Origin: Hypericibacter adhaerens | GTDB taxonomy: Bacteria > Pseudomonadota > Alphaproteobacteria > Dongiales > Dongiaceae | Assembly (NCBI RefSeq): GCF_008728835.1 | Contig: NZ_CP042582.1 | Location: 3,708,217 to 3,772,216, forward strand | Direction: 5' to 3' | Length of the DNA stretch: 64,000 bases | Shown here: piece by piece, positions 559-17,293 of the stretch | Layout of the letters: every line of letters begins with the position of its first letter | How positions within the stretch are numbered: position 1 is the first letter of the stretch | The notes under the pieces: generated by a model | The model's input: the letters and a program-made list of their open reading frames with translations, nothing else | Told to the model about the DNA's origin: nothing | Database searches by the model: none | Program-made: the position numbers and the translations under genes

Positions 559-1182
559 TCAATCGCCGGGATCATCCTCTGGCCATTTTTGCGAGATTGT
601 GTGACATGGTTCATGGAGCATTTCAAACATGCGGGACGGATCGCCATTGCCCATCGATACTATCAATGAGTTGGTTGGCGTTCTTGTGCCTCCATATTCT
701 CCGAGCGTCGGTCGCTCGATGATTGCGGTTCGATCACCGCTCGTTACACACAGTTGATCGCCATAGCTGCCGGAAAGGCGATCTTCGACAAAGCGCGTAA
801 GCCATGCTGGCCACAATTGTGGTGCCCTGCTTATTCGATTCAGTTGGCTAAAACGATCTACCAGAGTAAAGGCGGCGATTGCCGTAAACATCGCCACGCG
901 CTTTTGCGACGCTTCGTCGAAGAAAACTATATATGTCTCGACAAGCGGCAGCTGGAACTGCTCCACCTTCAGACGGTACATGAGCAGGTGTCCATCGCTG
1001 GACCGATAGAATGTGGTCGCGCGATTTAGATACGCCGGTGTGAAGTCTTGGAATTGCGGGCGAAAGACATCCTCTGTTGTTAACCCTTTATAATTGGGTG
1101 GGGTTGGTGGCTCCTCGGAGAAGACCGACGATGTCGACAATCCAATCAGCAGTACCGCAAAGACGAGCTTGGTAATTCGCAT
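559..1182 (-). CDS. Hypothetical secreted protein
   Basis: This encodes 207 residues with a clear N-terminal signal peptide: a basic start (MRITK), a hydrophobic core to about residue 18, then a Ser-rich region with likely cleavage near FS-EE (22-23). There is no lipobox Cys, so a periplasmic or secreted soluble protein is likely. I recognise no catalytic motif or family. A purine-rich AGGAAG stands about 9 bp before the ATG. Base composition is poorer in GC than the host genes to the right, in keeping with the mobile element. It lies just downstream of another minus-strand gene (1235-2332), separated by 52 bp, and could be cotranscribed with it. Confidence 0.6.
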   Translation of the reverse strand: MRITKLVFAVLLIGLSTSSVFSEEPPTPPNYKGLTTEDVFRPQFQDFTPAYLNRATTFYRSSDGHLLMYRLKVEQFQLPLVETYIVFFDEASQKRVAMFTAIAAFTLVDRFSQLNRISRAPQLWPAWLTRFVEDRLSGSYGDQLCVTSGDRTAIIERPTLGEYGGTRTPTNSLIVSMGNGDPSRMFEMLHEPCHTISQKWPEDDPGD

Positions 1183-1234
1183 TCCAAATCACTTCCTATC
1201 TTGAATGCCGTCGAAGCGTAGGCAACCGACTGCC

Positions 1235-2332
1235 CTAGGCGGCACGCAAGTAACGTTTCATTCTCGGCAGGAGGCGAAACCGCAGTGGCTGATAGTCTCG
1301 CGGCGGCTCTACCACCACGGGCTCGCCATCTTCTGGCGTCCATTTGATTCCCGAACTGGTCATAGCGTAGCGCGGCTCTCGCAGCCCTTCATTCCTCACA
1401 AAGACAATTGTACTCAGATTCAAGCGGCCGAAGAACTCTGGCAACGCACTGAGCGTCTTCTCGACAATTGTGATGCGCGCAACTAGATCCGACAAGGCAC
1501 GAGCCCACTCCCCAAACTCGTGGTCCTCTATCTGGTCCGTCGTCGGCTGAGAGTAAAACTCCATCGCAACAACCAGTTTGTCCCGAACGTACTGCAAATC
1601 GTTGATTGGAGAGTGGGAGAGGTCGAGGAAATTCCTGCCTGTGATTCGATGATAGCGCTTCAGCCTCAAAATCTTCTGGCCGCTGTTCCGCGCCTTGCGA
1701 CTAGAAACGTCGCCAAAGCCGTCGCCTTGTGTCTCGGGGGACAGGGCGTCTCTTGCATAATCTGTTATTTTTTCATCCCAGGTTAGCAGACCACGATTGT
1801 GCTGCACGATGCCCGCTAGGAACTTAAAGAGCGCCCCGCAGTTTTGTTGAAAGTGGGATCGCTGCGCTGAGAAGGCTCGCACTGTCGTCGATAGGAGAGC
1901 TGCGTCAATTTCTTTGATTAGTTCCGGGAGGTGGCGCCCGATACGATCAAACTGTTCTAGTCTATCTTTTCGGACTTGGTCGCTAACGAAGGCGTCCCGA
2001 AGCTGTTGGAGCTTCAATCCGTTTTTCTTGCAGCAGTCTTTGCCTACGGTCCTTCGCGCATCGCTCGAATACTCAACGACGCTTCCATCGAAATGTGTTC
2101 GCTCCTGACAATAGCAGCACCACACCATTCCTGATCGCGTTCCTACGGGATGAGCTATGGCGTAGTTATAAAGAATGCGGACGGGCTGGTCGTCATCTGA
2201 GGGCCGATCTAGTTTGTAACGCTCGACGCCTTCAGGGTTGGTGGAATCAATGAACTTGTAGCGACGAATAACTGCGTCGGCGCGCTCACGAACGCGTAGC
2301 AACCTGCGATAGTGTCGTTTCGATTCCGCCAT
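1235..2332 (-). CDS. Hypothetical protein with a Cys-rich, possibly zinc-binding segment
   Basis: About 365 residues, no signal peptide or membrane segment. Residues around 70-105 hold a cluster WCCYCQERTHF followed by GKDCCKK, a spacing that could bind zinc; the rest is charged and helical with several Arg/Leu-rich stretches. I do not recognise the family. The ATG at 2332 is preferred over an upstream in-frame TTG at 2356 because AAGGA lies 6 bp before it. It sits in the lower-GC element with a 438-bp empty stretch upstream that must contain its promoter. The zinc-binding idea is inference from Cys spacing only. Confidence 0.55.
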   Translation of the reverse strand: MAESKRHYRRLLRVRERADAVIRRYKFIDSTNPEGVERYKLDRPSDDDQPVRILYNYAIAHPVGTRSGMVWCCYCQERTHFDGSVVEYSSDARRTVGKDCCKKNGLKLQQLRDAFVSDQVRKDRLEQFDRIGRHLPELIKEIDAALLSTTVRAFSAQRSHFQQNCGALFKFLAGIVQHNRGLLTWDEKITDYARDALSPETQGDGFGDVSSRKARNSGQKILRLKRYHRITGRNFLDLSHSPINDLQYVRDKLVVAMEFYSQPTTDQIEDHEFGEWARALSDLVARITIVEKTLSALPEFFGRLNLSTIVFVRNEGLREPRYAMTSSGIKWTPEDGEPVVVEPPRDYQPLRFRLLPRMKRYLRAA

Positions 2333-2770
2333 GGTCAGTCCTTCAGCTATTGCCAAATCCCCCCTAATGTTCTCATTTTGTACCGATTCGCGCTAAATCG
2401 CAAGATATAGTGCGGCAGTGGACTGATATTTCATTATGTGGTAGGTGGCCGTGAGATAAGTTGTAGAAAACAAATGACTTTCTAGCTTCACCAAAGGGCT
2501 GGAGGGCCATCTTGTGGGAATTATTCGCGCCAGATTTCGGACGGCCATCACTGATGAGGAAGGCGCGCGTTACCCCCGTGGCCCACTCGATCAACCATTG
2601 ATGTCCCTGCCGGCAACTCAGCGGCCCCTATCGCGTGCGCCTTGTGACACCACAAATTTCAGGCGCAAAAATCTGATAGCCCATACGCATTGCGTCGAGC
2701 CGGCGCTTCCCCCCGTGGGGTGCCTCTCGTCTCGCAGCCTGGGCGCATGGTGGCCACGGCCGGCGCCGCG
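2333..2770. other. 438-bp stretch without a convincing gene
   Basis: It lies between the start of the Cys-rich protein gene and the end of the serine recombinase gene, both on the minus strand. Short open frames on either strand have no ribosome-binding site or recognisable product. It probably holds the promoter of the leftward Cys-rich gene; I see no strong hairpin or repeat. Confidence 0.4.
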
Positions 2771-3367
2771 CTACGCCGCAGACAGAATGCGGTGGACCGT
2801 GCCAACTCCAATCCCGAGCTTGTCCGCGATCTGCCGAACGCTGAGCCCTTTGTCCCTAGCAGCCCGAACCTTGCCCGCCTTTCCGTCCGCCACTGGGGGC
2901 CGGCCTAGCCGCTTGCCTTGCGCCCTAGCTCGCGCGAGCCCCGCAGTGACGCGTTCACGGATCATGGCGCGCTCAAACTCTGCGAAGACTCCAAGCATCC
3001 CGAACATGGCGCGCCCGGCTGGTGTTGACGTGTCCAAGCCCTGTTGATGTAGATATAGGTCAACGTGCTTCCCGTGCAGCTCCCCGAGGAAACCGACTAG
3101 GTCTTGCAGCGAGCGCCCGAGCCGGTCCACCGACCAAGCCGCCACCATGTCGAAGTCCCGCCGGGCGATACCCTTGCACAATGCATCGAAGGCGGGTCGC
3201 TGGTCGCGCCCCTTGGCGCCGCTGATGCCCTTGTCTGCGAACACTTGAACCACGTCCCATCCGTGACGCTCGGCTACCTCTGCCAGCTCGCGGCGCTGAT
3301 TCTCTGTCGTCTGCCCGTCTGTCGAGACACGGATGTACAGAGCCACGCGCTTTGATTTCCCGACCAT
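2771..3367 (-). CDS. Small serine recombinase (resolvase/invertase family)
   Basis: 198 residues, the usual size of a Tn3/Hin-type resolvase. The N-terminal catalytic domain has the nucleophile motif YIRVS (Ser15), then QRRE, the conserved SVDRLGRS segment with active-site Arg residues near 70, and the E-helix region FAEFERAMIRERV near 120-135. The C-terminus has the GKRLGRPP linker and a helix-turn-helix (SVRQIADKLGIGVGTVHRIL). The start at 3367 follows a GAGGGG Shine-Dalgarno 5 bp upstream; an in-frame ATG at 3397 lacks one. Such enzymes resolve cointegrates or invert DNA at short paired sites rather than integrating into tRNA genes, so it is probably not the integrase of this element. Inverted GTGTT/AACAC motifs just upstream are candidate recombination or operator sites. 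Confidence 0.9.
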   Translation of the reverse strand: MVGKSKRVALYIRVSTDGQTTENQRRELAEVAERHGWDVVQVFADKGISGAKGRDQRPAFDALCKGIARRDFDMVAAWSVDRLGRSLQDLVGFLGELHGKHVDLYLHQQGLDTSTPAGRAMFGMLGVFAEFERAMIRERVTAGLARARAQGKRLGRPPVADGKAGKVRAARDKGLSVRQIADKLGIGVGTVHRILSAA

Positions 3368-3412
3368 GTGATCCCCTCGCGTTGTGAACTGGCCCACAGG
3401 CTAGAGTGGGTG

Positions 3413-3811: not shown

Positions 3812-4294
3812 GAGTCCAAAGCGAGTCACTGGCGCGTGTCTCGATGGGGGCGGCTCTCGGCAGGGGCCGCCCTTCTCGCTTCTGGTGGGCCCGCTGTGGG
3901 CCCTGGAGGGGGAGGAATGGGGCCCACCATTGATCACAGAGGAGCCGTTGCCGGCGCGCCGTCCTCCGAGGGATCACAAATCCCCTGCGCCTCCGGTGAT
4001 CCCGCCAGTTTCCGGCCGGTGTTGCGGCGCGTGTTGCGGCAAGGCGGCGATTAGGGCGCACCTTTGACCTAGAGAAGGCGGCCCGGTCGAATAGCGCCGA
4101 CCTTTGACCACAGAGAAACCGCCGCCAGCGCCCGCCGAGTGAATATCTGGCGCCCGCGCGCCTTTCAAATCTCCCGACCCCATTGGCGGCCCGACCTGCG
4201 GCCGTCTCCCCCTTTGAGCATTCGGCAAGGCGACTTTGGCGACCACCGAGCGTCGGACGCCAGGTGCCCCACAACCCTACCCCGAGGAGTCCCC
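3812..4294. other. 483-bp non-coding region with CCTTTGACC direct repeats
   Basis: No convincing gene. CCTTTGACC occurs at 4061-4069 and 4101-4109, exactly 40 bp apart and each in a longer similar context (GCGC before, AGAGAA after). A weaker copy CCTTTCAAA begins at 4161, 60 bp further. Related ATTGATCACAGAGGAG and GGATCACAAAT segments lie at 3929 and 3971. Spacing in multiples of 20 bp upstream of a DNA-binding-protein gene and a helicase gene fits iteron-like replication sites or operators. Function is inference. Confidence 0.4.
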
Positions 4295-4576
4295 ATGAAT
4301 GATCTGACTATTGCGTTCAACACCGCTCGCGTGTCGGCGATGAAGAAGAAGAAGACCAGAAATTACACGATCCGGCATCACACTTTGGACAACACCGCTG
4401 AGATCAACCTCACTGCCGCACAGGCGCGTCTCGCGCGCATTGGTGGCCGGGCGGTGTCGGCTTCCATCGTAGTCCGCCGCGCGCTTGAGGTGCTCATGTC
4501 TCGCCTAGACGCCGCAGACGGCAGCCCGGAACAGGAAGCTGCCGAGGTCGCGGCGCTGTTGAAGCACACGCACTGA
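4295..4576 (+). CDS. Ribbon-helix-helix-like small DNA-binding protein
   Basis: 93 residues. A basic stretch (KKKKTR, about 18-23) precedes a segment that reads like a ribbon-helix-helix fold: a short strand (NTAEINLT), a helix beginning AAQARLARI, a turn at GGRAVS, and a second helix ASIVVRRALEVLMSRL. The acidic C-terminus (DGSPEQEAAEV) may make protein contacts. GAGGAG lies 6 bp before the ATG at 4295. It stands 36 bp before the helicase gene on the same strand, so the two are probably cotranscribed. The likely role is an autorepressor or a replication or partition regulator of the element; the repeats at 4061-4170 are candidate targets. Fold assignment is by pattern only. Confidence 0.55.
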   Translation: MNDLTIAFNTARVSAMKKKKTRNYTIRHHTLDNTAEINLTAAQARLARIGGRAVSASIVVRRALEVLMSRLDAADGSPEQEAAEVAALLKHTH

Positions 4577-4612: not shown

Positions 4613-6547
4613 ATGCGCAGCCCCCTGGCTATTCCCACCGAGGCGAACCTCTGGGAGCACCTCCGCTCCACAGCAATGTGGCGCCTCAGGTCCATCCTTG
4701 AGCGCCACGGCAACCGCCTTAGCTCGCAACACCACAACGCCCTATGGGCCCTAATCGTCTCCATGGTCGCCCGCCTGGAAGGCACCGACCACGGGCGTCT
4801 CGCCTTCGGACTCCCCACCGGCATGGGCAAGACGACTGCCATTGTCGCTCTGTGCGCTGCACTGGAGGGTGTTCGGCACCTGACCGGCAGCAGCCTGTCT
4901 TCGACGGGGACCAAGACCATTGCTGTATCTGCCTCCAAGGTTGAAGCGCTGTGCGAGCTGAAGCGCGCCATGATCGCAGAGGGTGTGAACCCCGAGCATG
5001 TCGGCCTGATCCACAGCAAGCGCTACTGGCCTTCAGTCGCTGAGAAGATCAAGGCCGGCGAGGCAAGAGACGACTACGCATCTGAACCCTCAGAGGGACA
5101 CGACCGTCCCATACTCTTGGTGTCCCATGCTCGGGTCCGAGGGCAGAATGGCGCGATTGCCGACTACATGCAGCGTGATCTGCTCATATGGGACGAAAGC
5201 CTATTCGTGTCGGACAGCAGTGGCGTATCGCTGTGCGCCCTAGACGAGAGCGCCGGTGCCCTTGAGCGTGTCGCCCGATATAAGCCTGAGTTTGTGGACC
5301 TTGCCGACTACTTGGACAGTTGCATCGGCCTCTGCCTCGCAAAGAGGGAGGAGCTGAAGGAAAGCGGCAAACCCGAGGTTGTCTTTCGGTTTCCGAGCCT
5401 CTCGGCTGACTACATGGAGACCTTCCGTGGTCTTCTCGGGACCAGACATGAGACCGTGTCCCGTCTGCTCGATTACGTGAATGAACCCATCCGCTACATC
5501 CCCACCAGTCTCGGGGGAGTCCTCTCGTATCGGCTGGCGATTCCTGACGAGTTGGAGAACATCGTCATCTTGGATGCCTCCCACCCCATCAGAGAGCTAG
5601 TGCGGTCGACCCAAGGCGTCATTGATGCAGAGCGAGAGCATCCCCTTATTGCAAGTCTCGGGATCAACCTCTCTGGCATTAAGCGCTTTGACCAGACGAC
5701 TATCAAATTCATGAAGCGGTCAGGAGGACGGACGGGCATGACCCGAAACCTCCTCAAGACCGGAGTTGGTCAGGAGCGTTCAGTTTCGCGAGAGTTGATC
5801 GAAGTGATCCGCAACATTCCGAAGGACGAGGCGGTCTTGGTCTTCACCTACAAGCCTCGACCGAAGGACAAGCGCTCGATGGCGTCTGTCCTCCTGGCTG
5901 ACTTGGAAGACGCTGGGATAGACATCAACGCCAAGGTCACTGACCACAGCGGACAGGAGCGTGATCGTATCACCGTTCTCACTTGGGGACAGGAAACCAG
6001 CAGCAATCACTACTCGCATTGCAAGCATGTGATCCTTGCTGGCGTCCTGATGCGAGCTGAGGAGGACGTTGCTGCCGCCTTTGTCGGTGAGACCCGGAAT
6101 ATCGGGGTGGACATCGACAACGCTCTGATCCGTTCCCTGATCCAGAGCGAGGCTGCCCACTGCGCCTATCAGGCCGCCTCTCGGGGATCTTGTCGGACAG
6201 CGGTCAATGGCATGGCCGAGGCAATGACGCTCTGGCTGATGCACGCGGACCCGGTCATCGTTCAGACCCTTCAGGAGGTAATGCCTGGGGTGAAGGTCGA
6301 GCCTTGGCTATCCGTGACGACCAGCTTCAAGGGCGCCAAGGGTAACGCTGCCGCTGTCACCATCGCGGGGTTCCTTGGGGGGCTTCCCCAGGATACCGAC
6401 ATGGTGTCCATCCGGTTCCTCAAGAGGAAGACAGGGTTGGACGGGATGCCGGCTCAATCCTTCAAGAGGGCACGGGACGCTGCTCTACAGTCTGTCCCGT
6501 GGGCGATGAACGGCCGTTCTCTGGTCCGCGTGTTCCCGGGGGATTAA
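4613..6547 (+). CDS. Superfamily-2-type helicase/ATPase of a mobile element
   Basis: 644 residues. Motif I is GLPTGMGKTT (66-75), a textbook SF2 Walker A; motif Ia-like IAVSASK follows near 103; motif II is LLIWDES (190-196) with DES in place of DEAD/DEAH. In the C-terminal half come VLVFTYKPR (motif IV-like), ITVLTWGQETSS (motif V-like) and YQAASRGSCR (motif VI-like, with Arg fingers). A helicase acting on the element's own DNA during replication is the simplest reading; no primase or nuclease domain was recognised. The upstream Shine-Dalgarno (AGAGGA) is rather far from the ATG. It is followed by about 200 bp containing a hairpin and then the terminase-like gene. Confidence 0.75.
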   Translation: MRSPLAIPTEANLWEHLRSTAMWRLRSILERHGNRLSSQHHNALWALIVSMVARLEGTDHGRLAFGLPTGMGKTTAIVALCAALEGVRHLTGSSLSSTGTKTIAVSASKVEALCELKRAMIAEGVNPEHVGLIHSKRYWPSVAEKIKAGEARDDYASEPSEGHDRPILLVSHARVRGQNGAIADYMQRDLLIWDESLFVSDSSGVSLCALDESAGALERVARYKPEFVDLADYLDSCIGLCLAKREELKESGKPEVVFRFPSLSADYMETFRGLLGTRHETVSRLLDYVNEPIRYIPTSLGGVLSYRLAIPDELENIVILDASHPIRELVRSTQGVIDAEREHPLIASLGINLSGIKRFDQTTIKFMKRSGGRTGMTRNLLKTGVGQERSVSRELIEVIRNIPKDEAVLVFTYKPRPKDKRSMASVLLADLEDAGIDINAKVTDHSGQERDRITVLTWGQETSSNHYSHCKHVILAGVLMRAEEDVAAAFVGETRNIGVDIDNALIRSLIQSEAAHCAYQAASRGSCRTAVNGMAEAMTLWLMHADPVIVQTLQEVMPGVKVEPWLSVTTSFKGAKGNAAAVTIAGFLGGLPQDTDMVSIRFLKRKTGLDGMPAQSFKRARDAALQSVPWAMNGRSLVRVFPGD

Positions 6548-6598
6548 AGACCGCACCCGTATAAGATTCTCCCGGCTTAGGTCGTTAAGTTGGGCCGG

Positions 6599-6639
6599 AT
6601 GACCCCCGTTTATGTCTAATAGGCTTATGCGGGGGTCAT
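6599..6639. repeat. 10-bp inverted repeat before the terminase-like gene
   Basis: ATGACCCCCG (6599-6608) and CGGGGGTCAT (6630-6639) are perfect inverted repeats separated by 21 bp. The structure sits 52 bp after the helicase stop and 110 bp before the terminase-like gene. No T-run follows, so a simple intrinsic terminator is unlikely; an operator, attenuator or packaging-related site is possible. Confidence 0.5.
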
Positions 6640-6749
6640 GACCTTCCCCGCCCCTACCTAGCCCTGCCGATCGACAGGCCACCTGCCTTGTCACATTCCA
6701 TGCCCCTGCCGTTGTGACGGCGGGCCCCCAACAACAGGAAACTGAAACC

Positions 6750-7142
6750 ATGACCGAAACGCCACCCCCGGCTGGGGAGGGCGCGACCAGCCTTGCCGGA
6801 AGGCAAGGGACCAGCCTTGGCAACAGCCAAGGGAACGACGCCCCTTTAACTGGCCGGGCCGCCCGAGAGGCGCTCCTAGAGCGCATCTGGAGGGCCACAG
6901 CCGAAGCCATCGCCCAGTCCTTGGAGTCTCCCGAAAAGGAAGACCACAAGGCGGCCATGATCAACGTGGCTCGCCAGTTTCTCACCGACAACAAGGTCAC
7001 CAACGAATCCCTTGACCGTATCGGCGAGAGCAAACACGTCGCCCTTGCAAAGGTGCTCAACGGGCTTCCCGAAGTGGACAGTGAAGCGGAACCCATCCGC
7101 CCCCTCTTTGGTGACCCCCTGCCCGCTCTCCCCGATCCGTAA
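6750..7142 (+). CDS. Terminase small subunit-like protein (T7/podophage type)
   Basis: 130 residues. The N-terminal 45 are Pro/Gly/Gln-rich and probably disordered. From about residue 45 there is a long helix (REALLERIWRATAEAIAQSL), then AAMINVARQFLTDNKV and, near the end, LNGLPEVDSEAE. The order helix, N-x-ARQFLKDN-like helix and LP(E/F)D-like end is what I know from small terminase subunits (DNA maturase A) of T7-like and related phages, which recognise phage DNA for packaging. No large terminase subunit was found in the window. The ATG at 6750 follows AGGAA; an in-frame GTG at 6714 has no better signal. Identification rests on motif resemblance and needs a profile search. Confidence 0.45.
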   Translation: MTETPPPAGEGATSLAGRQGTSLGNSQGNDAPLTGRAAREALLERIWRATAEAIAQSLESPEKEDHKAAMINVARQFLTDNKVTNESLDRIGESKHVALAKVLNGLPEVDSEAEPIRPLFGDPLPALPDP

Positions 7143-7161
7143 CCATGCAAAGGAAACGACC

Positions 7162-7359
7162 ATGACCGACAACAAGCCCGTGTCTCCCGAGGGCGAAGCA
7201 GCCGCCCGCCAACTCGACAGGGCCGGAAAGGTGTTGCTGAAGCTGAAGGGCTTGAAACATCGCCCCCACCTACTCGACCTGTTCGTCAAAGCGATCACAG
7301 CGGTCGAGGCAGAATACCCCAGTGCGACACACTGCAAGGTCTCCACGCTCGAAAGATGA
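7162..7359 (+). CDS. Small hypothetical protein of the coupled block
   Basis: 65 residues, helical and basic in the middle (AGKVLLKLKGLKHRPHLLDLFVKAI). AAAGGAAA lies just upstream of the ATG. Its stop codon overlaps the next start (ATGA at 7356-7359), so the following gene is probably translated by coupling. No family recognised. Confidence 0.55.
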   Translation: MTDNKPVSPEGEAAARQLDRAGKVLLKLKGLKHRPHLLDLFVKAITAVEAEYPSATHCKVSTLER

Positions 7360-8084
7360 CGACGCCCATCCGTCAGCGGTTGGCGGAATGTGCAGCGAAG
7401 GCGCGAACGTGCGAAGTCTCGGGATGCCATTTCCCGAGGCAGCATTTCGGGAAGTGGTGCGAAGCCCACGATAGGCGAGCCCAAGAGACCGGCCATCCCC
7501 TCGGCCGCACCATCCGGCGCCGTGAATTCGAGCCGTTCGTCAAAGACGCACGTCACTACCTCGAAAGACACCAAGACCACCCGCGAATCGCCACGGCCCT
7601 GAATTGGCTTGAGGCGCTGGTCTACGCAAGTGGACAGGCACCAGCCGAGATCATCCGCAAGTCAACCGCCCACGACCGTCTGTTGAAGTGGCTCGTCAAG
7701 CTGCGACGGCAGGAAACCTCACCGGTCGAGATTCTGGCCATCGTCATCGGCATCTATGCCTACCGGGAGTGGTCCCCGCAGGTCTTCCGCAGTGACCGGC
7801 ACTTCAACCACCAACTTGCCATCCGCGTCCTGCGTCTCGTCCGCCCGGAGCGTGTCACGACGATGCATCGCGGGTGCCACGAATACCTGAGTAAAGACCG
7901 CATCACGACCGGTGTTCGCGACCTGCTGAGCGAAGCGCTCAACAGACACGTTGGCGTCGTGGCCCTTTCGGTCGCTCGCAAGCTGGTGGCCAAGATCGAA
8001 GCCGCCAACCCCGTTCCAACCGCTCTAACCATGATCTTAGCCGGCACGATAACCGGCCCCATAGAAGGACTACCAAACGAATGA
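7356..8084 (+). CDS. Hypothetical protein with N-terminal Cys/His cluster
   Basis: 242 residues. The first 40 residues hold C-x4-C-H (CEVSGCH, 19-25) followed by W-C-x2-H (near 34-38), a spacing suited to one zinc ion. The remainder is rich in helices with many Arg and His and carries no catalytic motif that I recognise. Start and stop codons overlap those of both neighbours (ATGA at 7356 and 8081), which places it inside a translationally coupled block with the terminase-like gene. A DNA- or RNA-binding role is possible but unsupported beyond the zinc-like cluster. Confidence 0.6.
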   Translation: MTTPIRQRLAECAAKARTCEVSGCHFPRQHFGKWCEAHDRRAQETGHPLGRTIRRREFEPFVKDARHYLERHQDHPRIATALNWLEALVYASGQAPAEIIRKSTAHDRLLKWLVKLRRQETSPVEILAIVIGIYAYREWSPQVFRSDRHFNHQLAIRVLRLVRPERVTTMHRGCHEYLSKDRITTGVRDLLSEALNRHVGVVALSVARKLVAKIEAANPVPTALTMILAGTITGPIEGLPNE

Positions 8085-9100
8085 GTAACGACTACGAGAA
8101 CAGCAACAGCAACGACGATGGCGGTCAGATCGTGGCCCTGCCCGGTGGCGGCTTCCGCTATCAGGTTGGCGCGAGATCGTCCGAACAACCGGCGCCCCAG
8201 CAAGCCGCACCGTCCGGCAAATGGGTCGGTGACCTAAACCGCGTTACGGTTCGTGACGGGAAGATGATTCAGGAGACGGTCGCGTCTGTTACCAAGTCCT
8301 CCGATGCACCGACCGAAGGTGACGGCCACTGGCTCGACACTGCCCGCACTACTTCAGGCCGCCCTCTCGGCCGGGGTGAGATCGACGAAAACAGCATCGT
8401 GAAGGTGCCCGGCGCTGGCGAGTTCCAAGTTAAGACCCTCCTCCGCGATGGCACGCTGATCAAAGACCGCGACGGCCGCATCGTCGAAGCGCCCAAGACG
8501 CAGCCCAACGCTTTTGACAAGTTCGACCAACAGCAGCCGAGCGCCCCAAGCGCAGAGGCCGGTGAGGCACTGGACGCTGAAGGCGAGAAGCTGGCGCAGA
8601 CGATCATCGACCAGACCCGCGAAATGGACCGCGTCGCAGCCATTCGTGAAATCATCGACGGCCACGGTTTGAGCCCTGCCACCTTGGAACGCGTGGCCAG
8701 CTCCATGAAGGTCGACCCCGACAAGGCGGCGGGGATGGTTGAGGCCCTCGTCTCAAAATTCAGCGATCAGGCAGCAAAGGCCGTCGCACAGGTGGCGCCG
8801 GTCGAGCTTCAAGACGTAGCTACTTGGGCGCGGACGAACAACCCGAAGGCATTGAAGGCTGCAATGCGGTCCATCGCTGAAGACGACAAAGGCGCCGGGT
8901 TCCGCGCGCTCACTCAGGACTACCTTGCGGATCTGCCCTCAATCGACCCCGGCTTGATCCTCAATGCCGAGATGCCCGAGGGCGTGACCGCTTACGAGCG
9001 CGACGGTCGCGTGATCCTGCGAACGCCTCACGGCGAGGTCGATTGGAAGTCCGCGATCCGGTCGGGCTTTGTCACCGTGTCGCGGCGCGGTCGCCGATGA
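8081..9100 (+). CDS. Hypothetical acidic, partly disordered protein
   Basis: 339 residues without Cys. The N-terminal 180 are rich in Gly, Pro, Gln, Asp and Ser and probably flexible (SNDYENSNSNDDGG at the start, QQQPSAPSAEAGEALDAEGE near 150-170). The last half is predicted helical with repeated Ala/Lys/Asp and ends in a basic tail (SRRGRR). It starts in an ATGA overlap with the gene before and ends in one with the gene after. Size, acidity and place after a terminase-like gene are compatible with a phage scaffold-like or internal protein, but there is no diagnostic motif; function unknown. Confidence 0.6.
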   Translation: MSNDYENSNSNDDGGQIVALPGGGFRYQVGARSSEQPAPQQAAPSGKWVGDLNRVTVRDGKMIQETVASVTKSSDAPTEGDGHWLDTARTTSGRPLGRGEIDENSIVKVPGAGEFQVKTLLRDGTLIKDRDGRIVEAPKTQPNAFDKFDQQQPSAPSAEAGEALDAEGEKLAQTIIDQTREMDRVAAIREIIDGHGLSPATLERVASSMKVDPDKAAGMVEALVSKFSDQAAKAVAQVAPVELQDVATWARTNNPKALKAAMRSIAEDDKGAGFRALTQDYLADLPSIDPGLILNAEMPEGVTAYERDGRVILRTPHGEVDWKSAIRSGFVTVSRRGRR

Positions 9101-9330
9101 TCCCTGCACGGGCTGCCGTTCTCTCCTCTGAGGGTCACCGGATACAGGGTCTACTTGCGGAGTGGCGGAATTACGCGAAGTCGCCGCAGTCCACCGTATT
9201 GTCCAAGGACGCCTTCAGGTACAGCCTGACAGCGGGCTTCATGTTTGGTGATGCGGCGGTCAAGGCCGCCAAAGCTGACTTGCGCAGGTACCAGGATCGC
9301 TGTCACCACAACCGAGCGACACGGCGATGA
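9097..9330 (+). CDS. Small hypothetical protein
   Basis: 77 residues (MIPARAAVLSS to NRATRR), basic, with a helical AAVKAAKADLRRYQDR C-terminal part. The ATG overlaps the stop of the 339-residue gene (ATGA at 9097-9100), and its own stop overlaps the next start. This coupling is the main evidence that it is a gene. No family recognised. Confidence 0.5.
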   Translation: MIPARAAVLSSEGHRIQGLLAEWRNYAKSPQSTVLSKDAFRYSLTAGFMFGDAAVKAAKADLRRYQDRCHHNRATRR

Positions 9331-9596
9331 ACGGCGTCGATCTTGCGAGGTTCACCCAGCGGGCTACCCAGGACTTCGCCTCATTTCAGCGAAAGGCCGG
9401 TGCTGCCCATGAGCGCGCCAAGGACCAACCTGTTGGCGACGCTTACCGCATGACGTTTGTTCCGCCGCGAGCTTGGGGCGCGGTCACGGAACGCATCGAG
9501 GCCACCTATAAGGGACTAAAAGCCGTCTACCTGCGGTTCGCCAATCATGGCCCGATATGGCAACTGCAAGTGCCAGTACGGGGCTTCGACATCTGA
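9327..9596 (+). CDS. Small hypothetical protein ending the coupled block
   Basis: 89 residues, starting in an ATGA overlap at 9327. Amphipathic N-terminal helix (DFASFQRKAGAAHERAK), then FVPPRAWGAVTERIEA and a hydrophobic, aromatic end (PIWQLQVPVRGFDI). No signal peptide. Last of five genes joined by 4-bp overlaps (7162-9596), so it likely belongs to the same functional unit. No family recognised. Confidence 0.5.
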   Translation: MNGVDLARFTQRATQDFASFQRKAGAAHERAKDQPVGDAYRMTFVPPRAWGAVTERIEATYKGLKAVYLRFANHGPIWQLQVPVRGFDI

Positions 9597-9815
9597 CCCG
9601 CCGCGCGCCCCACTTTCTGACCAAACCCTGGACTCGAAAGTAGAACAATCTTGGGCAAGGTAGAGGGTGGGGCGTTTCGGCTCGACACCCATTCCGACAA
9701 ATCTAGAAACGCCGAAAGCAGTAGGAGCAAGAATGACCGATATCCCGCGTGACAAATGGAACCACACAAGCCGGCGACCGTGCCCAGCGCCAGAGCAGAG
9801 CGGTGGGTAGACGTA

Positions 9816-10574
9816 ATGGGCATCCTCGTAAACCCGTTCATGTTCGCCCGCCCATGGATATTTTCGGCGGCCGGTTCGCATTTTGACGGTGCAGCGGCGC
9901 TGAGCAGAACCGGTATCGACGGCGTCGCTGACTCGGCGAAATTTACTCTGTCCGCATGGATCAATCTGACGGGCGGCGACGGACTTCGTCAGGTTCCGTT
10001 CCGCATCGAAGGTAGCGGCGGCCAGCGGCTCACGTTCGAGCGCACTACCGGAAACAAGTACAACATCAGCGCGAGGCACGGCACGACCACTGTTGCAGAT
10101 GTGACCTCGACCGCATCGTTTGTGGCGGGCTCCGGATGGAAGCATATCCTCGCCTCTTGCGATGTGTCGGGAGCAACCGGCGTGTTTCAACTCTATATCC
10201 AGGATGCAGCAGCCGGCACATCTACCGTCTCGGGCTCTCAGATAATCGACTGGACCTCTAACGGTCTTGTGCGCCTGTCATCCGCTACAGGCGCATCCCC
10301 GGCATTTCAAGTCCAGGGCGACATGGCCGAGTTCTTCTTGGACATCAAGAACGCGCTTGACCTGACCGTCGCTGCCAATCGACGCAAATTCATCAGCGCG
10401 AGTGGGCACCCGGTGGATCTTGGCAACCAGGGAGCGCTGCCTTTTGGAACGCAACCGGCGTACTACTTCCACCGCGACGCCAGCGAATCTCCGGCCGCCT
10501 TCATCAACAACCGGGGCTATGGTGGCGCATTTGCTTTGTCGGGGTCTCTTTCCGCATCAGCAACAGACCCCTAG
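9816..10574 (+). CDS. LamG/concanavalin-like lectin-fold protein
   Basis: About 252 residues from the ATG at 9816. The order FTLSAWINL, FRIEG, YNISARHG, GWKHILASCD, FQLYIQD and GDMAEFFLDI follows the strands of LamG/laminin-G jelly-roll domains (compare the AWI and W-H-x4 motifs). The opening MGILVNPFMF is like the start of several phage-encoded LamG or tail-associated proteins. It could bind carbohydrate on a cell surface or virion. No signal peptide. An in-frame ATG at 9756 would add 20 residues but has no clear binding site; a GGTGGG precedes 9816. A 12-bp hairpin lies 34 bp after the stop. Confidence 0.65.
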   Translation: MGILVNPFMFARPWIFSAAGSHFDGAAALSRTGIDGVADSAKFTLSAWINLTGGDGLRQVPFRIEGSGGQRLTFERTTGNKYNISARHGTTTVADVTSTASFVAGSGWKHILASCDVSGATGVFQLYIQDAAAGTSTVSGSQIIDWTSNGLVRLSSATGASPAFQVQGDMAEFFLDIKNALDLTVAANRRKFISASGHPVDLGNQGALPFGTQPAYYFHRDASESPAAFINNRGYGGAFALSGSLSASATDP

Positions 10575-10608
10575 AGTAAAGTCGCCTTGCCGAACACTCA
10601 AATGGAAT

Positions 10609-10639
10609 GGGCTAGTCGGAACACCACTCCGACTAGCCC
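10609..10639 (+). terminator. Strong 12-bp hairpin after the LamG gene
   Basis: GGGCTAGTCGGA (10609-10620) and TCCGACTAGCCC (10628-10639) are perfect inverted repeats around a 7-nt loop. It closes the rightward cluster. There is no T-run after it, so it is either a terminator that needs help from other factors or a stabilising 3' hairpin. Confidence 0.55.
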
Positions 10640-10856
10640 TAGTCCTACTGAGGTAGTGGCGGGGGTCGCTCGGGAAACTAGGTCGGCCCTTCCCCTCTTC
10701 TCAACGAGAGGGACAACGATCATGGCCCGCTGCAACATGGGCTTCTAGCGAGAATGGCTTCTCTCGACGCATCGGATACCCCATTATGCGCTAACAAACC
10801 GAATCTGTTGTTTTCGCAAGCCGCCCCTAGCCGCGCGAAGCAAGTGACCAGCCCCA
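10640..10856. other. Gap without a convincing gene
   Basis: Between the hairpin and a convergent membrane-protein gene. A GAGAGGG followed by ATG at 10722 opens an eight-codon frame only. Nothing else was seen. Confidence 0.3.
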
Positions 10857-11342
10857 CTACTGCTGACGCGCAGCGGTCTTCGCCTTCTGGCGGTTCATCC
10901 CTCTAGTCAGCATGAACATGCCCACCCCCCACATACCTACTGTCGGCAGAATCAACGCCGCAAGGGAGAACCGTTTATCCCCTAGGCAATAGATAAACCA
11001 CACCCAGCCCCCTAAGCCGACTACAAAGCCGGCTACACCCAACCAGCCCACGTCCGCGATGAAGTCTCTTGCCCACTTGCTAAGGAGCGGTGGGAGAGCT
11101 AGGGCCGCCCCAAGAAGCACCAACACATACTGCTCAGTGGCCAGCCCGGCTCCAATTATCGCGCCAAGAAGTAAGTAGATTAGAGAAACGGCTTGCTTCT
11201 GCGCCCGTTGATCGTCCTCATTCCGCTCGCTCTGTTGAAGCAGGCGCACAATCCATGCAACCGCAGCGTCCAACGCAGGCTTATCTGATTTCGCAAGCAC
11301 ATTGAGCACCAGATTCCTAGTGCTCTCTTGATCTTCCGTCAT
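10857..11342 (-). CDS. Hypothetical membrane protein, four likely TM segments
   Basis: 161 residues. A charged, helical cytoplasmic N-terminal half (about 1-48, with QQSERNEDDQRAQKQ) is followed by hydrophobic segments near 50-66, 70-85, 95-118 and 126-145, then a basic tail (NRQKAKTAARQQ). No enzymatic motif. A G-rich sequence precedes the ATG at 11342. It is divergent from the thermonuclease gene; the shared 69 bp must hold both promoters. Family unknown. Confidence 0.6.
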   Translation of the reverse strand: MTEDQESTRNLVLNVLAKSDKPALDAAVAWIVRLLQQSERNEDDQRAQKQAVSLIYLLLGAIIGAGLATEQYVLVLLGAALALPPLLSKWARDFIADVGWLGVAGFVVGLGGWVWFIYCLGDKRFSLAALILPTVGMWGVGMFMLTRGMNRQKAKTAARQQ

Positions 11343-11411
11343 CTTGTAGCCCCCCGCCCCTTAGCATTGTTCACACTTTCGGAACAGCCGCAGTGGTTGT
11401 ATTATACCACC

Positions 11412-11882
11412 ATGATTCGCGCCGCTTCTACAGCCTTCCTTGCCCTCCTGATGTGCGCCACAGCCTGGGCCGCCGACCTACAAGGGCGCGCCTCAGTGAT
11501 CGACGGGGACACCATCGAGATACACGGCACGAGGATACGGCTATTCGGGATAGATGCCCCGGAAGGTCGCCAACTCTGCAAGGACGCTAGCGGCAAGGAT
11601 TACCGCTGCGGGCAAAAGGCAGCCTTTGCACTGGCCGACCACATCGGCGCCGGCACAGTGTCTTGCGACGCACGCGACATAGACCGCTATGGACGGACGG
11701 TGGCCGTCTGTCATCTGGGCGCCGAGGACTTGAACGCGTGGATGGTCGCGCAAGGCTGGGCCGTTGCCTATCGGCATTACAGCAAGGACTACGTTCAGCA
11801 GGAGGACACGGCCAAGAGCGCCAAGCTTGGCGTGTGGGCCGGCAGCTTTGAGTGGCCGTGGGACTGGCGGCACAACAACTGA
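11412..11882 (+). CDS. Secreted thermonuclease-like (SNase-family) nuclease
   Basis: 156 residues. A signal peptide (MIRAAS, hydrophobic core, cleavage after AWA near residue 21) precedes an SNase-fold domain: VIDGDTI, RIRLFGIDAPE (conserved Arg, Asp and Glu of the active site), then DRYGRTVAVC with the second catalytic Arg. Four Cys residues (QLCKD, YRCGQ, VSCDA, VAVCH) could form disulfides. These proteins cleave DNA or RNA in a calcium-dependent way outside the cytoplasm; on conjugative and integrative elements, SNase-family genes are common cargo. The start at 11412 is chosen because it gives an intact signal peptide; the frame runs further upstream without support. Confidence 0.85.
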   Translation: MIRAASTAFLALLMCATAWAADLQGRASVIDGDTIEIHGTRIRLFGIDAPEGRQLCKDASGKDYRCGQKAAFALADHIGAGTVSCDARDIDRYGRTVAVCHLGAEDLNAWMVAQGWAVAYRHYSKDYVQQEDTAKSAKLGVWAGSFEWPWDWRHNN

Positions 11883-11938
11883 GAGCACTTTACGCGCCTT
11901 TGAGTGGCAACCCTTTTGGGGGCAAAACGGGGGACAAT

Positions 11939-12385
11939 ATGGCACTGATTAAATGCATCGAATGTTCACGCGAGATTTCAGACAAGGCCGCAAGCTGTCC
12001 AGGGTGTGGCGCTCCTGTGTCGGCTCAGATGCCGGCAAGTGTACCGGATTCGGTGCGCTATGACCCAACGACGGATTCGTTCAGCGGCACTATGGGTTTG
12101 ATGGTCAAGTTGGCAATGCGCGCCGTCCAAGATCTGGGTTGGAAGCTGAACCAGGCCAACGAGAATCTCGGGCTTGTCACCTTTGAAACGGGCATGAGCT
12201 GGGGTTCATGGAGCGGCGTTTCATGCTCTCTTACCGTAGAGGAGGTGTCGCCCCACACCTTCAAGGTCGTTGGCACCGGAAAGCAGAATGTCAGGGGCGG
12301 ACAGATACTCGCGCTAGACATCGGTGGAGAGGCAAAGGGTAAGGCTCGCAAGGCAATCGAAAAGATGAAGGAGCTGGCTCACTAA
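11939..12385 (+). CDS. Zinc-ribbon protein of unknown function
   Basis: 148 residues. The N-terminus is a zinc ribbon (IKCIECSREISDKAASCPGCGAPV split here as C-x2-C near 6-9 and C-x2-C near 20-23). The rest is a small beta-rich domain (GLVTFETG, SCSLTVEEV, TFKVVGTGKQN) ending in a basic helix (AKGKARKAIEKMKELAH). It follows the nuclease gene by 56 bp on the same strand. Zinc-ribbon-headed small domains of this type are widespread and poorly characterised. Confidence 0.65.
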   Translation: MALIKCIECSREISDKAASCPGCGAPVSAQMPASVPDSVRYDPTTDSFSGTMGLMVKLAMRAVQDLGWKLNQANENLGLVTFETGMSWGSWSGVSCSLTVEEVSPHTFKVVGTGKQNVRGGQILALDIGGEAKGKARKAIEKMKELAH

Positions 12386-12405
12386 CTTAGCACCCTGGCC
12401 AACCG

Positions 12406-12861
12406 GTGGCTCTACGACACGGCCTTGTAGGTGTTGCGGTCTTCTTCGCAGTGCTGACAGTAATGCGGTCGGTGCTGGGGCCGACCGTGTGCAAGGATGG
12501 CTGGCCCTCCCACTCCATCGGGAAGCAAGGGGCTTGCTCCCATCATGGCGGCGTCGCTCATGGAAAGGGCACGTTGTCTGCCCTTCTCGCCTTGTTGGCT
12601 GGAGGCGGCGTTGGCTATGCCCTCCATATGAGGGCGGAGAACGCAGAGAGCGCCCGACGCGCAGCACAAAGGGCAGAGGCGCAAAGGATCAATCCGCCAT
12701 CGCCACCGAGGCCGGCCACGCGCGCCGGCCCTCTATGCCCCGTCTGCGGTTCTCCGATGGCTGCCCGGCTCGCGAAGAAGGGCCGCCGGAAGGGGCAACA
12801 CTTTTGGGGCTGCACCCGCTACCCAAGGTGCAGAGGCACTAAGCCGATGGGCGGAAGATAG
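12406..12861 (+). CDS. Membrane-anchored protein with DUF3761-like and topoisomerase-type zinc-finger segments
   Basis: About 151 residues from a GTG start. The N-terminal hydrophobic segment is followed by CKDG..S then GACSHHGG, the pattern of small secreted DUF3761 proteins. A second hydrophobic stretch (LSALLALLAGGGVGYAL) and a charged linker precede a C4 zinc finger of the topoisomerase-I C-terminal type (CPVCGSPM ... FWGCTRYPRCRGT). The combination in one short protein is unusual. It is the last gene before the right end of the element. The start is uncertain. Confidence 0.6.
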   Translation: MALRHGLVGVAVFFAVLTVMRSVLGPTVCKDGWPSHSIGKQGACSHHGGVAHGKGTLSALLALLAGGGVGYALHMRAENAESARRAAQRAEAQRINPPSPPRPATRAGPLCPVCGSPMAARLAKKGRRKGQHFWGCTRYPRCRGTKPMGGR

Positions 12862-12879
12862 GCGACTGCCCCTAAATCG

Positions 12880-12922
12880 GCTCCCACAACCGCCTTGACG
12901 GTGCTCCCACAGTGCTCCCACA
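12880..12922. repeat. Three GCTCCCACA repeats, likely integrase arm-type sites
   Basis: Perfect 9-bp direct copies at 12880-12888, 12903-12911 and 12914-12922, spaced 23 and 11 bp, about 60-100 bp inside the tRNA-like attachment fragment. Short direct repeats at this distance and helical spacing are what tyrosine integrases bind with their arm-binding domain; GCTCCCACA-like repeats are familiar to me from P4-type integrase elements. The role is inference. Confidence 0.55.
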
Positions 12923-12980
12923 ATGCCCGCGCCGGCTCAGATTTAACCTTGGTTTCAGTGGGTTGCCTAGTTGGCGGCTG

Positions 12981-13001
12981 CAAATCCTAGTCCCCCAGCC
13001 A
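12981..13001 (+). other. attR: 3' end of a tRNA-Gln gene
   Basis: Reading rightward: CAAAT (T-loop from position C56), CCTAG (3' strand of the T-stem), TCCCCCA (3' acceptor strand), G (discriminator), CCA. A bacterial tRNA-Gln typically begins UGGGG and ends CCCCAGCCA, so the acceptor strand, G73 and CCA all match. The bases left of C56 (GGCTG) do not continue the T-arm, as expected where element DNA joins the tRNA fragment. There is no rest of the tRNA here. The intact gene should be at the far left of the element. Confidence 0.65.
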
Positions 13002-15936: not shown

Positions 15937-17283
15937 TCAGCGCTCGTGCAGGGCGGTGTCCAACGTGAGGTAGATCGGCTTCAGCACATATTGGAACAAC
16001 GTCTTCCGGCCGGTGAGGATGACGGCTTCCCCGGTCATGCCCGGCGTGAGGACGTGCGTCGGGTTGGTGCCCACGTAGGGTTGATCGAGCTCGATCTCGA
16101 CCATGAAATAGGGCGCCTGGGTATTGTCGGTCGGCGCGCTCGAGGGCGCGATGCGGACGAGCTTGCCCGCGACGGAACCGAAGCGGCCATAGTCGAAGGC
16201 GTCCGACTTCACCACCACGTCCTGGCCGACCTGCACGAAGCCGATATCGCGGGAAGCGACGCGCGCCTTCATCAGCACGCCGCCTTCCGTCGGCACGATC
16301 TCGCACACCGTCCCGCCCGGCGGGATCACCGTGCCGATCGGCGTCTCCGAGATCTTCTGCACGATGCCGGTGACGGGCGCCTTGACCTCGATATCGACGG
16401 AGCGGCTTTCGTACGCCGCCTGCGTCGCCTTCAGCTCGTCCAGCTGCGCCATGAGATCGGACCGCTGCGTGCGGGCATCGCTCGCGGCCTTGGCCCAGAT
16501 CACCGCCCGCTCCGCCTCGAGGCTCTTGATGCGCGCCCCGTGCTGGTCGAGCGAGGTCACGAGCTGGGTGTAGGTCCGTTCGGACTGGGCCGCCTGCTCC
16601 TCGACCTGGGCGAGCCTGTTCATGGCGATGACGCCTTGCCTCACGCCCTCGCGCGTGCGCGCCAGCAGGTCCCGCGTGGCGTTGAGGCTGGATTTCGCCG
16701 CCGGGATCTCGCTCTGGGCGGCCGCCAACGCCCATTTCTCCTCGTCGATCTGGCGGTCGGTCTGCTCCATGTTGCTGCTGCGCTGGCGCACGAGCTGCGC
16801 GTTCAGCTCCTCCGCCTCCTCCACCATGCCGCCATACTGTTCCTTGAAGCGCACGAAGTTCGGCGGCCGGTCGGAGGCGAAGGCGCCGAGCCGCTCGATC
16901 TGGATCTCCAGATAGGCCATGCGGGACTGGGTACGGGCGAGGTCGCTCATCAGGTTGGCGTTCCGGAACTTGGCGATGAGATCGCCCCGCTGCACCTGCT
17001 GGTCGTTGCGCACCAGCACGGATTCGAGCGCGCCGCCTTCGGCCGTCTGGATCACCTGGATGCGCCCCACCGGCACGAACTCGCCGCGCGCCCGCGCCAC
17101 CTCCTCGATCTTCACGAACAGCGACAGGATGACGAGGGTCGCCACCACGCCGACGACGCCGATCAGCAGCAGGCGGACGCCGCGCGTCACCCGGGTATAT
17201 TCGATATCGCTGCCGATCTGCGCGATCGGACGCCGCTCCTCGGCGATGGCGACCGCGATGCTCTTTCCGGCCCTGGCGTCCAT
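15937..17283 (-). CDS. HlyD-family membrane fusion protein of type I secretion
   Basis: 448 residues from 17283 (TAGGAGG 7 bp upstream). Short cytoplasmic N-terminus, one TM helix (about 36-58: LLLIGVVGVVATLVILSLFV), biotinyl-lipoyl half-motif (GGALESVLVRNDQQVQRGDLIAKF), a long coiled coil (about 115-290) and the returning lipoyl half (VDIEVKAPVTGIVQKI, then PGGTVCEIVP), followed by a beta-barrel and the HlyD-type end. It would bridge the inner-membrane ABC exporter to a TolC-like channel. It is the last gene of a three-gene leftward operon, 10 bp after the ABC gene. No TolC gene is in the window. Confidence 0.9.
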   Translation of the reverse strand: MDARAGKSIAVAIAEERRPIAQIGSDIEYTRVTRGVRLLLIGVVGVVATLVILSLFVKIEEVARARGEFVPVGRIQVIQTAEGGALESVLVRNDQQVQRGDLIAKFRNANLMSDLARTQSRMAYLEIQIERLGAFASDRPPNFVRFKEQYGGMVEEAEELNAQLVRQRSSNMEQTDRQIDEEKWALAAAQSEIPAAKSSLNATRDLLARTREGVRQGVIAMNRLAQVEEQAAQSERTYTQLVTSLDQHGARIKSLEAERAVIWAKAASDARTQRSDLMAQLDELKATQAAYESRSVDIEVKAPVTGIVQKISETPIGTVIPPGGTVCEIVPTEGGVLMKARVASRDIGFVQVGQDVVVKSDAFDYGRFGSVAGKLVRIAPSSAPTDNTQAPYFMVEIELDQPYVGTNPTHVLTPGMTGEAVILTGRKTLFQYVLKPIYLTLDTALHER

Positions 17284-17293
17284 GCCCACCCTC

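Follow-up and report, generated by a model that had tools for sequence, protein, structure and literature searches.

We analysed a 64,000-nucleotide stretch of the chromosome of Hypericibacter adhaerens (contig NZ_CP042582.1, positions 3,708,217 to 3,772,216; hereafter the window, in which position 1 is the first nucleotide and negative positions lie to its left), and propose that an island overlapping its left end is probably an integrated phage satellite that parasitises T7-like podophages, with genes for packaging and morphogenesis at its core. The island encodes its own small terminase subunit (TerS) of the T7 type and no recognisable capsid or packaging motor, so that these parts would most likely be stolen from a T7-like phage that infects the cell. 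Four further islands share this core, namely g1a and g1b in a second genome of the genus (G001), g4 in Dongia deserti (G004), and a diverged one in the betaproteobacterium Eleftheria terrae. A preliminary description made from the sequence alone had suggested a search of related genomes for the block at 7162-9596.

The terS gene lies on the forward strand in an open reading frame (ORF) of 6714-7142 with a GTG start, in which the ATG at 6750 gives a protein of 130 aa (6750-7142). Scanned from the GTG start, the protein matched PF11123 (DNA_Packaging_2, the T7 gp18 type) with E = 1e-9 and 38.8 bits at a cut-off of 27.5, and it matched the terminase small subunit family phrog_891 at 3.2e-5. Aligned by hhalign with four T7-like TerS sequences, it gave a probability of 95 and a score of 48.3, which 0 of 100 column shuffles reached (maximum, 17.6), and in an alignment with TerS from two phages, RHEph01 of Rhizobium and CRP-125 of Roseobacter, the motif NVARQFLxDN was shared. 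The preliminary description was right to see a T7-type small-terminase-like gene here, and the profile search it had proposed returned a significant match. Judged by these homologies, we regard the product as a T7-type small terminase, for which a role in redirecting packaging is predicted. Only two of 385 alphaproteobacterial genomes contained PF11123 above the cut-off, namely that of H. adhaerens and G324 (see below for the details); sub-cut-off matches in G121 and G316 were rejected, their neighbours reading as ordinary chromosomal genes. In the ORF scans of the four alphaproteobacterial islands, sets of 72 and 70 ORFs each yielded two ORFs matching PF11123 (best E, 5e-10 and 1e-9) and two matching phrog_891; we read these as one match per island, the tables naming no ORF.

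The island spans positions -1914 to 13001 (14,916 bp including both repeats) in the single 5.87-Mb contig of the genome, and its G+C content is 59.5%, as compared with 70.5% for some 5 kb of flanking sequence. A tRNA-Gln (ctg) gene (approximately -1970 to -1897) sets its left boundary, and the terminal 19 bp of this gene (attL, -1914 to -1896) are repeated exactly at 12983-13001 (attR, forward strand); the tRNA-Gln attachment end proposed earlier is therefore real. The genes are ordered as integrase, cargo, serine recombinase (reverse strand), small ORFs, helicase-like gene, terS, five ORFs, a LamG gene, nuclease and zinc-ribbon ORFs, and attR. A tyrosine integrase of 574 aa (-1819 to -95), 88-89% identical in g1a, directly follows the tRNA gene, and between that gene, about 1.9 kb outside, and the window edge there is nothing else except the start of a small P-loop ORF. 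An ordinary prophage would have been indicated by a large terminase subunit (TerL), portal or capsid gene to the left of the window, and none lies there. The helicase-like protein (644 aa; 4613-6547, forward strand), in whose sequence a P-loop (GLPTGMGKT) and a DE box can be recognised, is a probable replication factor; no Pfam family matched it above the cut-off. Downstream of terS on the forward strand are a 65-aa core ORF (7162-7359; 85% identical in both G001 islands), the zinc-finger-like protein p7356 (242 aa; 7356-8084; C-x4-C ... C-x2-H), which is present in all five islands and is probably DNA-binding, the scaffold-like protein p8081 (339 aa; 8081-9100), and two small core ORFs of 77 and 89 aa (9097-9596). 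The starts at 7356, 8081, 9097 and 9327 each overlap the preceding ORF by 4 nt, in agreement with the coupled block of 7162-9596 noted before.

To survey virion genes, 142 of the 158 ORFs listed for the four alphaproteobacterial islands (non-overlapping ORFs of at least 60 aa and every ORF of at least 100 aa) were scanned against Pfam and PHROG at E 0.001. The 16 others comprise four serine recombinases (L004:5771-6397, L010:10211-10798, L012:18864-19607 and L014:17234-18007), of which that of the H. adhaerens island was scanned separately against both databases, the g1a integrase (L010:5752-7485), and eleven short or overlapping ORFs (L010:11844-12026, 12026-12217, 12535-12933 and 12613-12942; L012:17269-17598, 17278-17676, 17541-17903 and 17790-18209; L013:4546-4848 and 4801-5088; L015:10391-10573). 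Among the displayed matches, which in one set cover 25 of 27 PHROG families and include many nameless ones, no family was named as TerL, portal, capsid or tail, as the preliminary description had reported for the first three. A T7-type TerL (PF22530) was detected in none of three genomes (H. adhaerens, G001 and D. deserti), while the control search was positive in 2 of 14. The H. adhaerens genome contains one Terminase_6N match, about 450 kb from the island, and this distant TerL (L046, G000:C1:4168214) is of the phrog_2 type and negative for PF22530. A resident helper prophage was rejected on the grounds that the three genomes lack a T7-type TerL and that the one TerL noted above, at 4.168 Mb, belongs to a different type. 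As a separate observation, no clear phage genes were seen among the scanned neighbours of this TerL, which is possibly from a gene transfer agent (GTA) or a prophage remnant.

Repeats at a tRNA gene flank each of the five islands (Gln in two of them, Glu, Gly and Ala in one each), and the lengths, both repeats included, are 14,089-14,916 bp. Besides the H. adhaerens island, g1a lies at tRNA-Gln (14,154 bp; 17-bp repeat), g1b at tRNA-Glu (14,144 bp; 19-bp repeat; a dissimilar integrase), g4 at tRNA-Gly (14,089 bp; 48-bp repeat; a third integrase), and the E. terrae island at tRNA-Ala on megaplasmid NZ_CP106953.1 (14,693 bp; 17-bp repeats). As three dissimilar tyrosine integrases occur in the four alphaproteobacterial islands, the core moves between integration modules. 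The g1b insertion is absent from H. adhaerens: the alignment on the tRNA-Glu side runs through the predicted junction, and past the site the next conserved stretch is 1.8 kb off in H. adhaerens and 1.9 kb from attL in G001, the latter 1.9 kb being unaligned. Counting the H. adhaerens genome in each case, TerS matches were found in 3 of 61 relatives (the other two being G001 and G004), and p7356 and the helicase in 3 and 2 of 17 family members, respectively. A four-member p7356 alignment searched against 84,980 species genomes detected D. deserti alone, in a scan that may omit the H. adhaerens genome and those very near to it. In 385 alphaproteobacteria, p7356 was matched in three, namely H. 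adhaerens, G391 and G203, the last of which (1.3e-4) was rejected as chance, since the match covers just 40 residues and none of the other island genes was matched at the place we accept. The helicase is 84 and 83% identical in the G001 islands and 37% in E. terrae, and its relatives were found in 3 of 72,556 plasmid records, those of E. terrae, Ruegeria and Azospirillum; the latter two are distant relatives in islands with no TerS match and are not counted as members.

The E. terrae island matches the layout of the H. adhaerens one in its integrase, recombinase on the reverse strand, small ORF, helicase, p7356-like gene (8.8e-10) and p8081-like gene (1.9e-6; both by hmmsearch over the ORFs of five loci). 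In a PHROG scan covering two unannotated ORFs and 11 of the 13 annotated genes, a protein of 1304 aa (L059:18389-22303) was found to be a T7-type internal virion (ejection) protein (phrog_342, 6.8e-113), with matches in 192 phage records. No capsid or TerL was detected among the scanned ORFs, and the internal virion protein is the sole virion match besides TerS. By its homology, this protein is an independent tie to T7-like phages.

The absence of virion genes could also result from decay, that is, the island could be a T7-like prophage from which the structural genes have disappeared and in which terS happens to survive. Such a prophage is not foreign to the class: G324 carries PF11123 TerS and a TerL directly after it (PF22530, 7.5e-39), beside a tRNA gene. 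It resembles the islands in these TerS and tRNA features, has homologues of a T7-like scaffold (matched by 1488 phage records) and internal virion protein (phrog_342, 5.5e-160), and differs from them in having a T7-type TerL and a morphogenesis gene set. In its own right, this locus (G324:C1, about 85-118 kb; L041-L043) is a T7-like prophage adjoining tRNA-Leu, whose integrase and capsid genes are our reading of the ORFs. We regard decay as very unlikely for the islands, since five of them in two classes share a common gene set and a near-identical size, and independent decay to the same set would hardly be expected. The displayed PHROG names for the 142 scanned ORFs (many families being nameless, and 2 of 27 in one set undisplayed) include neither T7 polymerase nor TerL, capsid, portal or tail, and the reading frames of the core genes are open and mostly under purifying selection. 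The ratio of nonsynonymous to synonymous substitution rates (dN/dS; ten genes, 24 pairs, one of them identical) lay at 0.06-0.24 in all but two genes, the 65-aa ORF having 0.58-0.70 between species and LamG 0.30.

Synonymous divergence (dS) between the H. adhaerens island and g1a varied from gene to gene, being 1.29 for p8081, 0.97 for the helicase, 0.58 for the integrase, 0.32 for p7356, 0.12 for TerS and 0.066 for LamG. This mosaic suggests that TerS and LamG were recently exchanged or, in the case of TerS, that the gene is constrained at the DNA level. Few core genes are as conserved as TerS, at the protein as well as the synonymous level, which argues against the idea that the island is spread by a GTA or generalised transduction with TerS irrelevant to its transfer. 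That idea could draw on the distant TerL in the same genome; however, the latter is not of the T7 type to which TerS belongs, and we consider such a transfer extremely improbable.

A second gene of the satellite core may concern the capsid. In a grid of 12 island proteins against 12 T7-like gene families, built on phage and prophage genes of our choice (144 comparisons, the top three per protein listed), there were two outliers, TerS with TerS (48.6) and p8081 with the scaffold (34.0), followed by the helicase with TerL (27.8; both are P-loop proteins) and a remainder of at most 23.7. Against T7-like scaffolding proteins, p8081 scored 33.9-36.7 over 80-94 columns by hhalign, and 0 of 200 column shuffles reached the score in each of two runs (maxima, 20.8 and 21.2). 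The PHROG scaffold family was matched weakly (0.14). We tentatively consider that p8081 resembles T7-like scaffolding proteins. PDB sequence and profile searches with TerS, p8081 and the helicase gave nothing convincing, and an AlphaFold model of TerS (pLDDT 64; four helices) was not used as evidence.

The preliminary description had also put forward a 10-bp inverted repeat upstream of terS as a packaging (pac) site. The repeat exists (ATGACCCCCG/CGGGGGTCAT at 6599-6639), but the corresponding gap has no inverted repeat of at least 8 bp in g1a and a different one in g1b, and therefore we rejected it as a packaging site for want of conservation. A better candidate is an array inside terS itself, where two tandem 24-bp units (6785-6832, forward strand) each contain a perfect 7-bp stem (CCTTGSC..GSCAAGG). 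These units are the only hairpins in the island with a perfect 7-bp stem and a 3-6-nt loop. The pattern AGCCTTGSCN{2,6}GSCAAGG occurs twice in the whole H. adhaerens genome, both times in the terS units, and seven times in G001, all inside islands (five in terS and two at the p7356/p8081 junction of g1a); G004 has one occurrence, outside its island, and the reversed control pattern has none in the three genomes. The stem variants CCTTGCC/GGCAAGG and CCTTGGC/GCCAAGG are one compensated pair apart, and g1b adds one imperfect copy. Folded as RNA, 6780-6842 gave a z of -3.5, with 2 of 200 shuffles equally good. Other readings of the array are possible, such as an operator, an RNA hairpin or a mere coding repeat.

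The cargo of the islands raises another possibility, namely that they are ordinary integrative defence or cargo islands, in which TerS is a DNA-binding regulator or a decoy poisoning T7-like packaging. The ORF set of g1b and g4 includes AbiTii (PADLOC, 6.4e-38) and NACHT (Pfam, 3.5e-10) genes, and g1b has a PD-T7-4-like DUF4145 gene (9.2e-14). The tables do not say where the former two lie, and it is our reading from size and sequence that AbiTii belongs to g1b and NACHT to a 977-aa ORF of g4; this ORF of the D. deserti island (L015:6441-9371), probably the NACHT gene, is possible anti-phage cargo. The set of the H. adhaerens island and g1a contains one PDDEXK_5 gene (2.9e-5) and just two weak PADLOC matches (an SNase-type model, 1.1e-6, and another at 4.7e-4). 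Relatives of the helicase and p7356 in islands with no TerS match, and the lack of viral-contig relatives, suit a defence island as well. A pure decoy, however, leaves unexplained the uniform size of 14.1-14.9 kb, the scaffold-like protein and the virion protein of E. terrae, and interference and hijacking can coexist in known satellites. We thus consider the defence-island explanation unlikely.

Several observations speak against a satellite of T7-like phages. The island has neither a known helper phage nor a documented induction or particle. Scans of IMG/VR with p7356, TerS, p8081, LamG and the helicase found no viral-contig relative; in 50,697 phage records, TerS had five matches at E 0.4-0.5 only, three of which touch a roseophage gene annotated as DNA maturase A, and the helicase, p7356, p8081 and LamG had none. 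The family is rare: of 398 Pseudomonadota, H. adhaerens alone had the helicase at E 1e-10. In g4, the helicase is missing and a ParB-like gene occupies its position, and the hairpin array is absent from g4 and the E. terrae island. In the latter, the TerS candidate, a 128-aa ORF before the helicase, matched phrog_891 at 5e-4 and PF11123 at 0.005, below the cut-off, and it was missed by the four-member TerS profile. The H. adhaerens island and g1a share the site and the integrase, so that common descent is possible and the two may be one old insertion. For p8081, the hhalign probability was just 29-44%, no Pfam match was found, and an AlphaFold model (pLDDT 49) was useless and not taken as evidence. 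Finally, an island of G391 carries p7356 with no TerS match and, together with the distant helicase relatives in two other islands lacking a TerS match, indicates that some core genes have no fixed link to packaging. The G391 island (G391:C1, about 1711-1720 kb; L028/L029) is about 8 kb long, splits an apparent comM-like Mg-chelatase gene, and contains serine recombinases, the p7356 relative and a ParB-like gene.

Among the remaining genes of the H. adhaerens island, those for the LamG, nuclease and zinc-ribbon proteins are accessory. A 184-aa cargo ORF (-76 to 478, in the window from 1; forward strand), with a P-loop read from the sequence, and two cargo ORFs of 207 and 373 aa (559-2356, reverse strand) have no counterpart in g1a, g1b or g4. 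The small serine recombinase (2771-3397, reverse strand; PF00239, E = 1.2e-46) has an 89% identical relative in g1a and a PHROG 125 recombinase as its E. terrae counterpart, and those of g1b and g4 are of a different subtype on the other strand. A 93-aa core ORF (4295-4576, forward strand; dN/dS 0.19), conserved in g1a and g1b, is perhaps DNA-binding. The LamG-like protein noted before was recovered as a 272-aa LamG-domain protein (9756-10574, forward strand; PF13385, E = 3.3e-12) with a match in g1a only, and is followed by SNase-type nuclease and zinc-ribbon ORFs (11328-12861, forward strand; PF00565, 2e-16; Zn_Ribbon_1, 1.4e-4), the SNase having a 63% identical relative in g1b. The gap that precedes the helicase operon contains three direct repeats of 22 nt (3914-4109; imperfect, centred around ACCTTTGACC), a possible operator or origin/iteron element; a related motif occurs twice in the same locus, not in g1a or g4, and at two scattered places in g1b. 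Upstream in the same chromosome, a second island of about 20 kb with low overall and third-codon-position G+C content lies at -37000 to -16000 (L002, L003).

Members of the family of phage-inducible chromosomal islands (PICIs) are about 8-16 kb in size and have an integrase, their own TerS in the pac-type members, an AlpA/Stl-type regulator and pri-rep; capsid-forming PICIs (cfPICIs) additionally have their own capsid genes and TerL, and P4-like satellites are characterised by Sid, Psu, Delta and alpha. Like the PICIs, including the Staphylococcus aureus pathogenicity islands (SaPIs), the island described here is 14-15 kb long at an att site, possesses an integrase and a small terminase, has no TerL or virion gene among the scanned ORFs, and belongs to a type with accessory defence genes. 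It differs in the T7-type (PF11123) TerS, the helicase-like protein of no known family and the predicted podophage helper. No AlpA/Stl-type regulator or pri-rep family was named among the matches of the H. adhaerens island, in which an unrecognised regulator is possible, and HTH_17 was found only in the g1b and g4 set. The satellite part of the earlier proposal of a PICI-kind element is thus supported, while membership of the PICI family proper, which the size of 14,916 bp, integrase and TerS would fit, is not shown. The scans of the four islands found no cfPICI-type capsid genes with TerL and, among the displayed PHROG matches (many nameless, 2 of 27 undisplayed), no P4-named family. Sid of P4 and the capsid-remodelling protein of the PICI-like elements (PLEs) are external scaffolds, and the likeness to these satellites holds only if p8081 redirects capsid size; p8081, unlike them, tentatively resembles the internal T7 scaffold of the helper type. 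Well-studied satellites mostly parasitise long-tailed phages.

The literature comparison drew on PMC10803314, PMC11389934, PMC10872708, PMC9611059, PMC10945586 and PMC11773190. These describe capsid remodelling by the PLE protein (PMC10945586) and, in Vibrionaceae, phage-inducible chromosomal minimalist islands (PICMIs), which lie next to fis, lack terS and are packaged as a concatemer (PMC10803314). PICMIs are likewise small integrated satellites of virulent phages with excision and replication genes (PMC10803314), and our island differs from that account in having terS and sitting at a tRNA gene. The marine virion-encapsidated integrative mobile elements (VEIMEs) and tycheposons, named as likely satellites (PMC10803314, PMC11389934), are comparable as transduced or tRNA-linked islands, and some VEIMEs may have a T7-type TerS. 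Within the limited coverage of titles and abstract openings in the open PMC literature, no satellite with a T7-type TerS was reported. The island EcCIMP1 has a helper with a podophage name, vB_EcoP_Kapi1.

From the anatomy, homology and recurrence of the island, we infer the following course. On infection by a T7-like podophage, the island would excise and replicate with its helicase-like protein; its TerS would recruit the TerL of the helper to island DNA, perhaps at the hairpin repeats in terS, and helper capsids would be filled with this DNA. More tentatively, p8081 might compete with the helper scaffold, giving smaller heads that fit 14-15 kb. The islands amount to 0.32-0.38 of the compared T7-like genomes (38.9-43.4 kb), a proportion compatible with a smaller head as well as with a trimer packed into a head of normal size. 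The exchanged cargo, represented by AbiTii-, NACHT- and nuclease-type genes in the relatives, would defend the host. It is conceivable, though we hold the full combination to be rather doubtful, that the islands constitute a family of satellites in Alpha- and Betaproteobacteria that parasitises T7-like phages with its own TerS, a competing scaffold for smaller heads, an ejection protein in one branch and pac hairpins in terS.

If the proposal is true, satellite parasitism would extend to T7-like phages, which are among the best-understood virulent types, and to soil bacteria, in which satellites are little described. Its testable parts would be TerS, the candidate pac array, the scaffold candidate and the size rule by which an island has about a third of the length of a T7-like genome.

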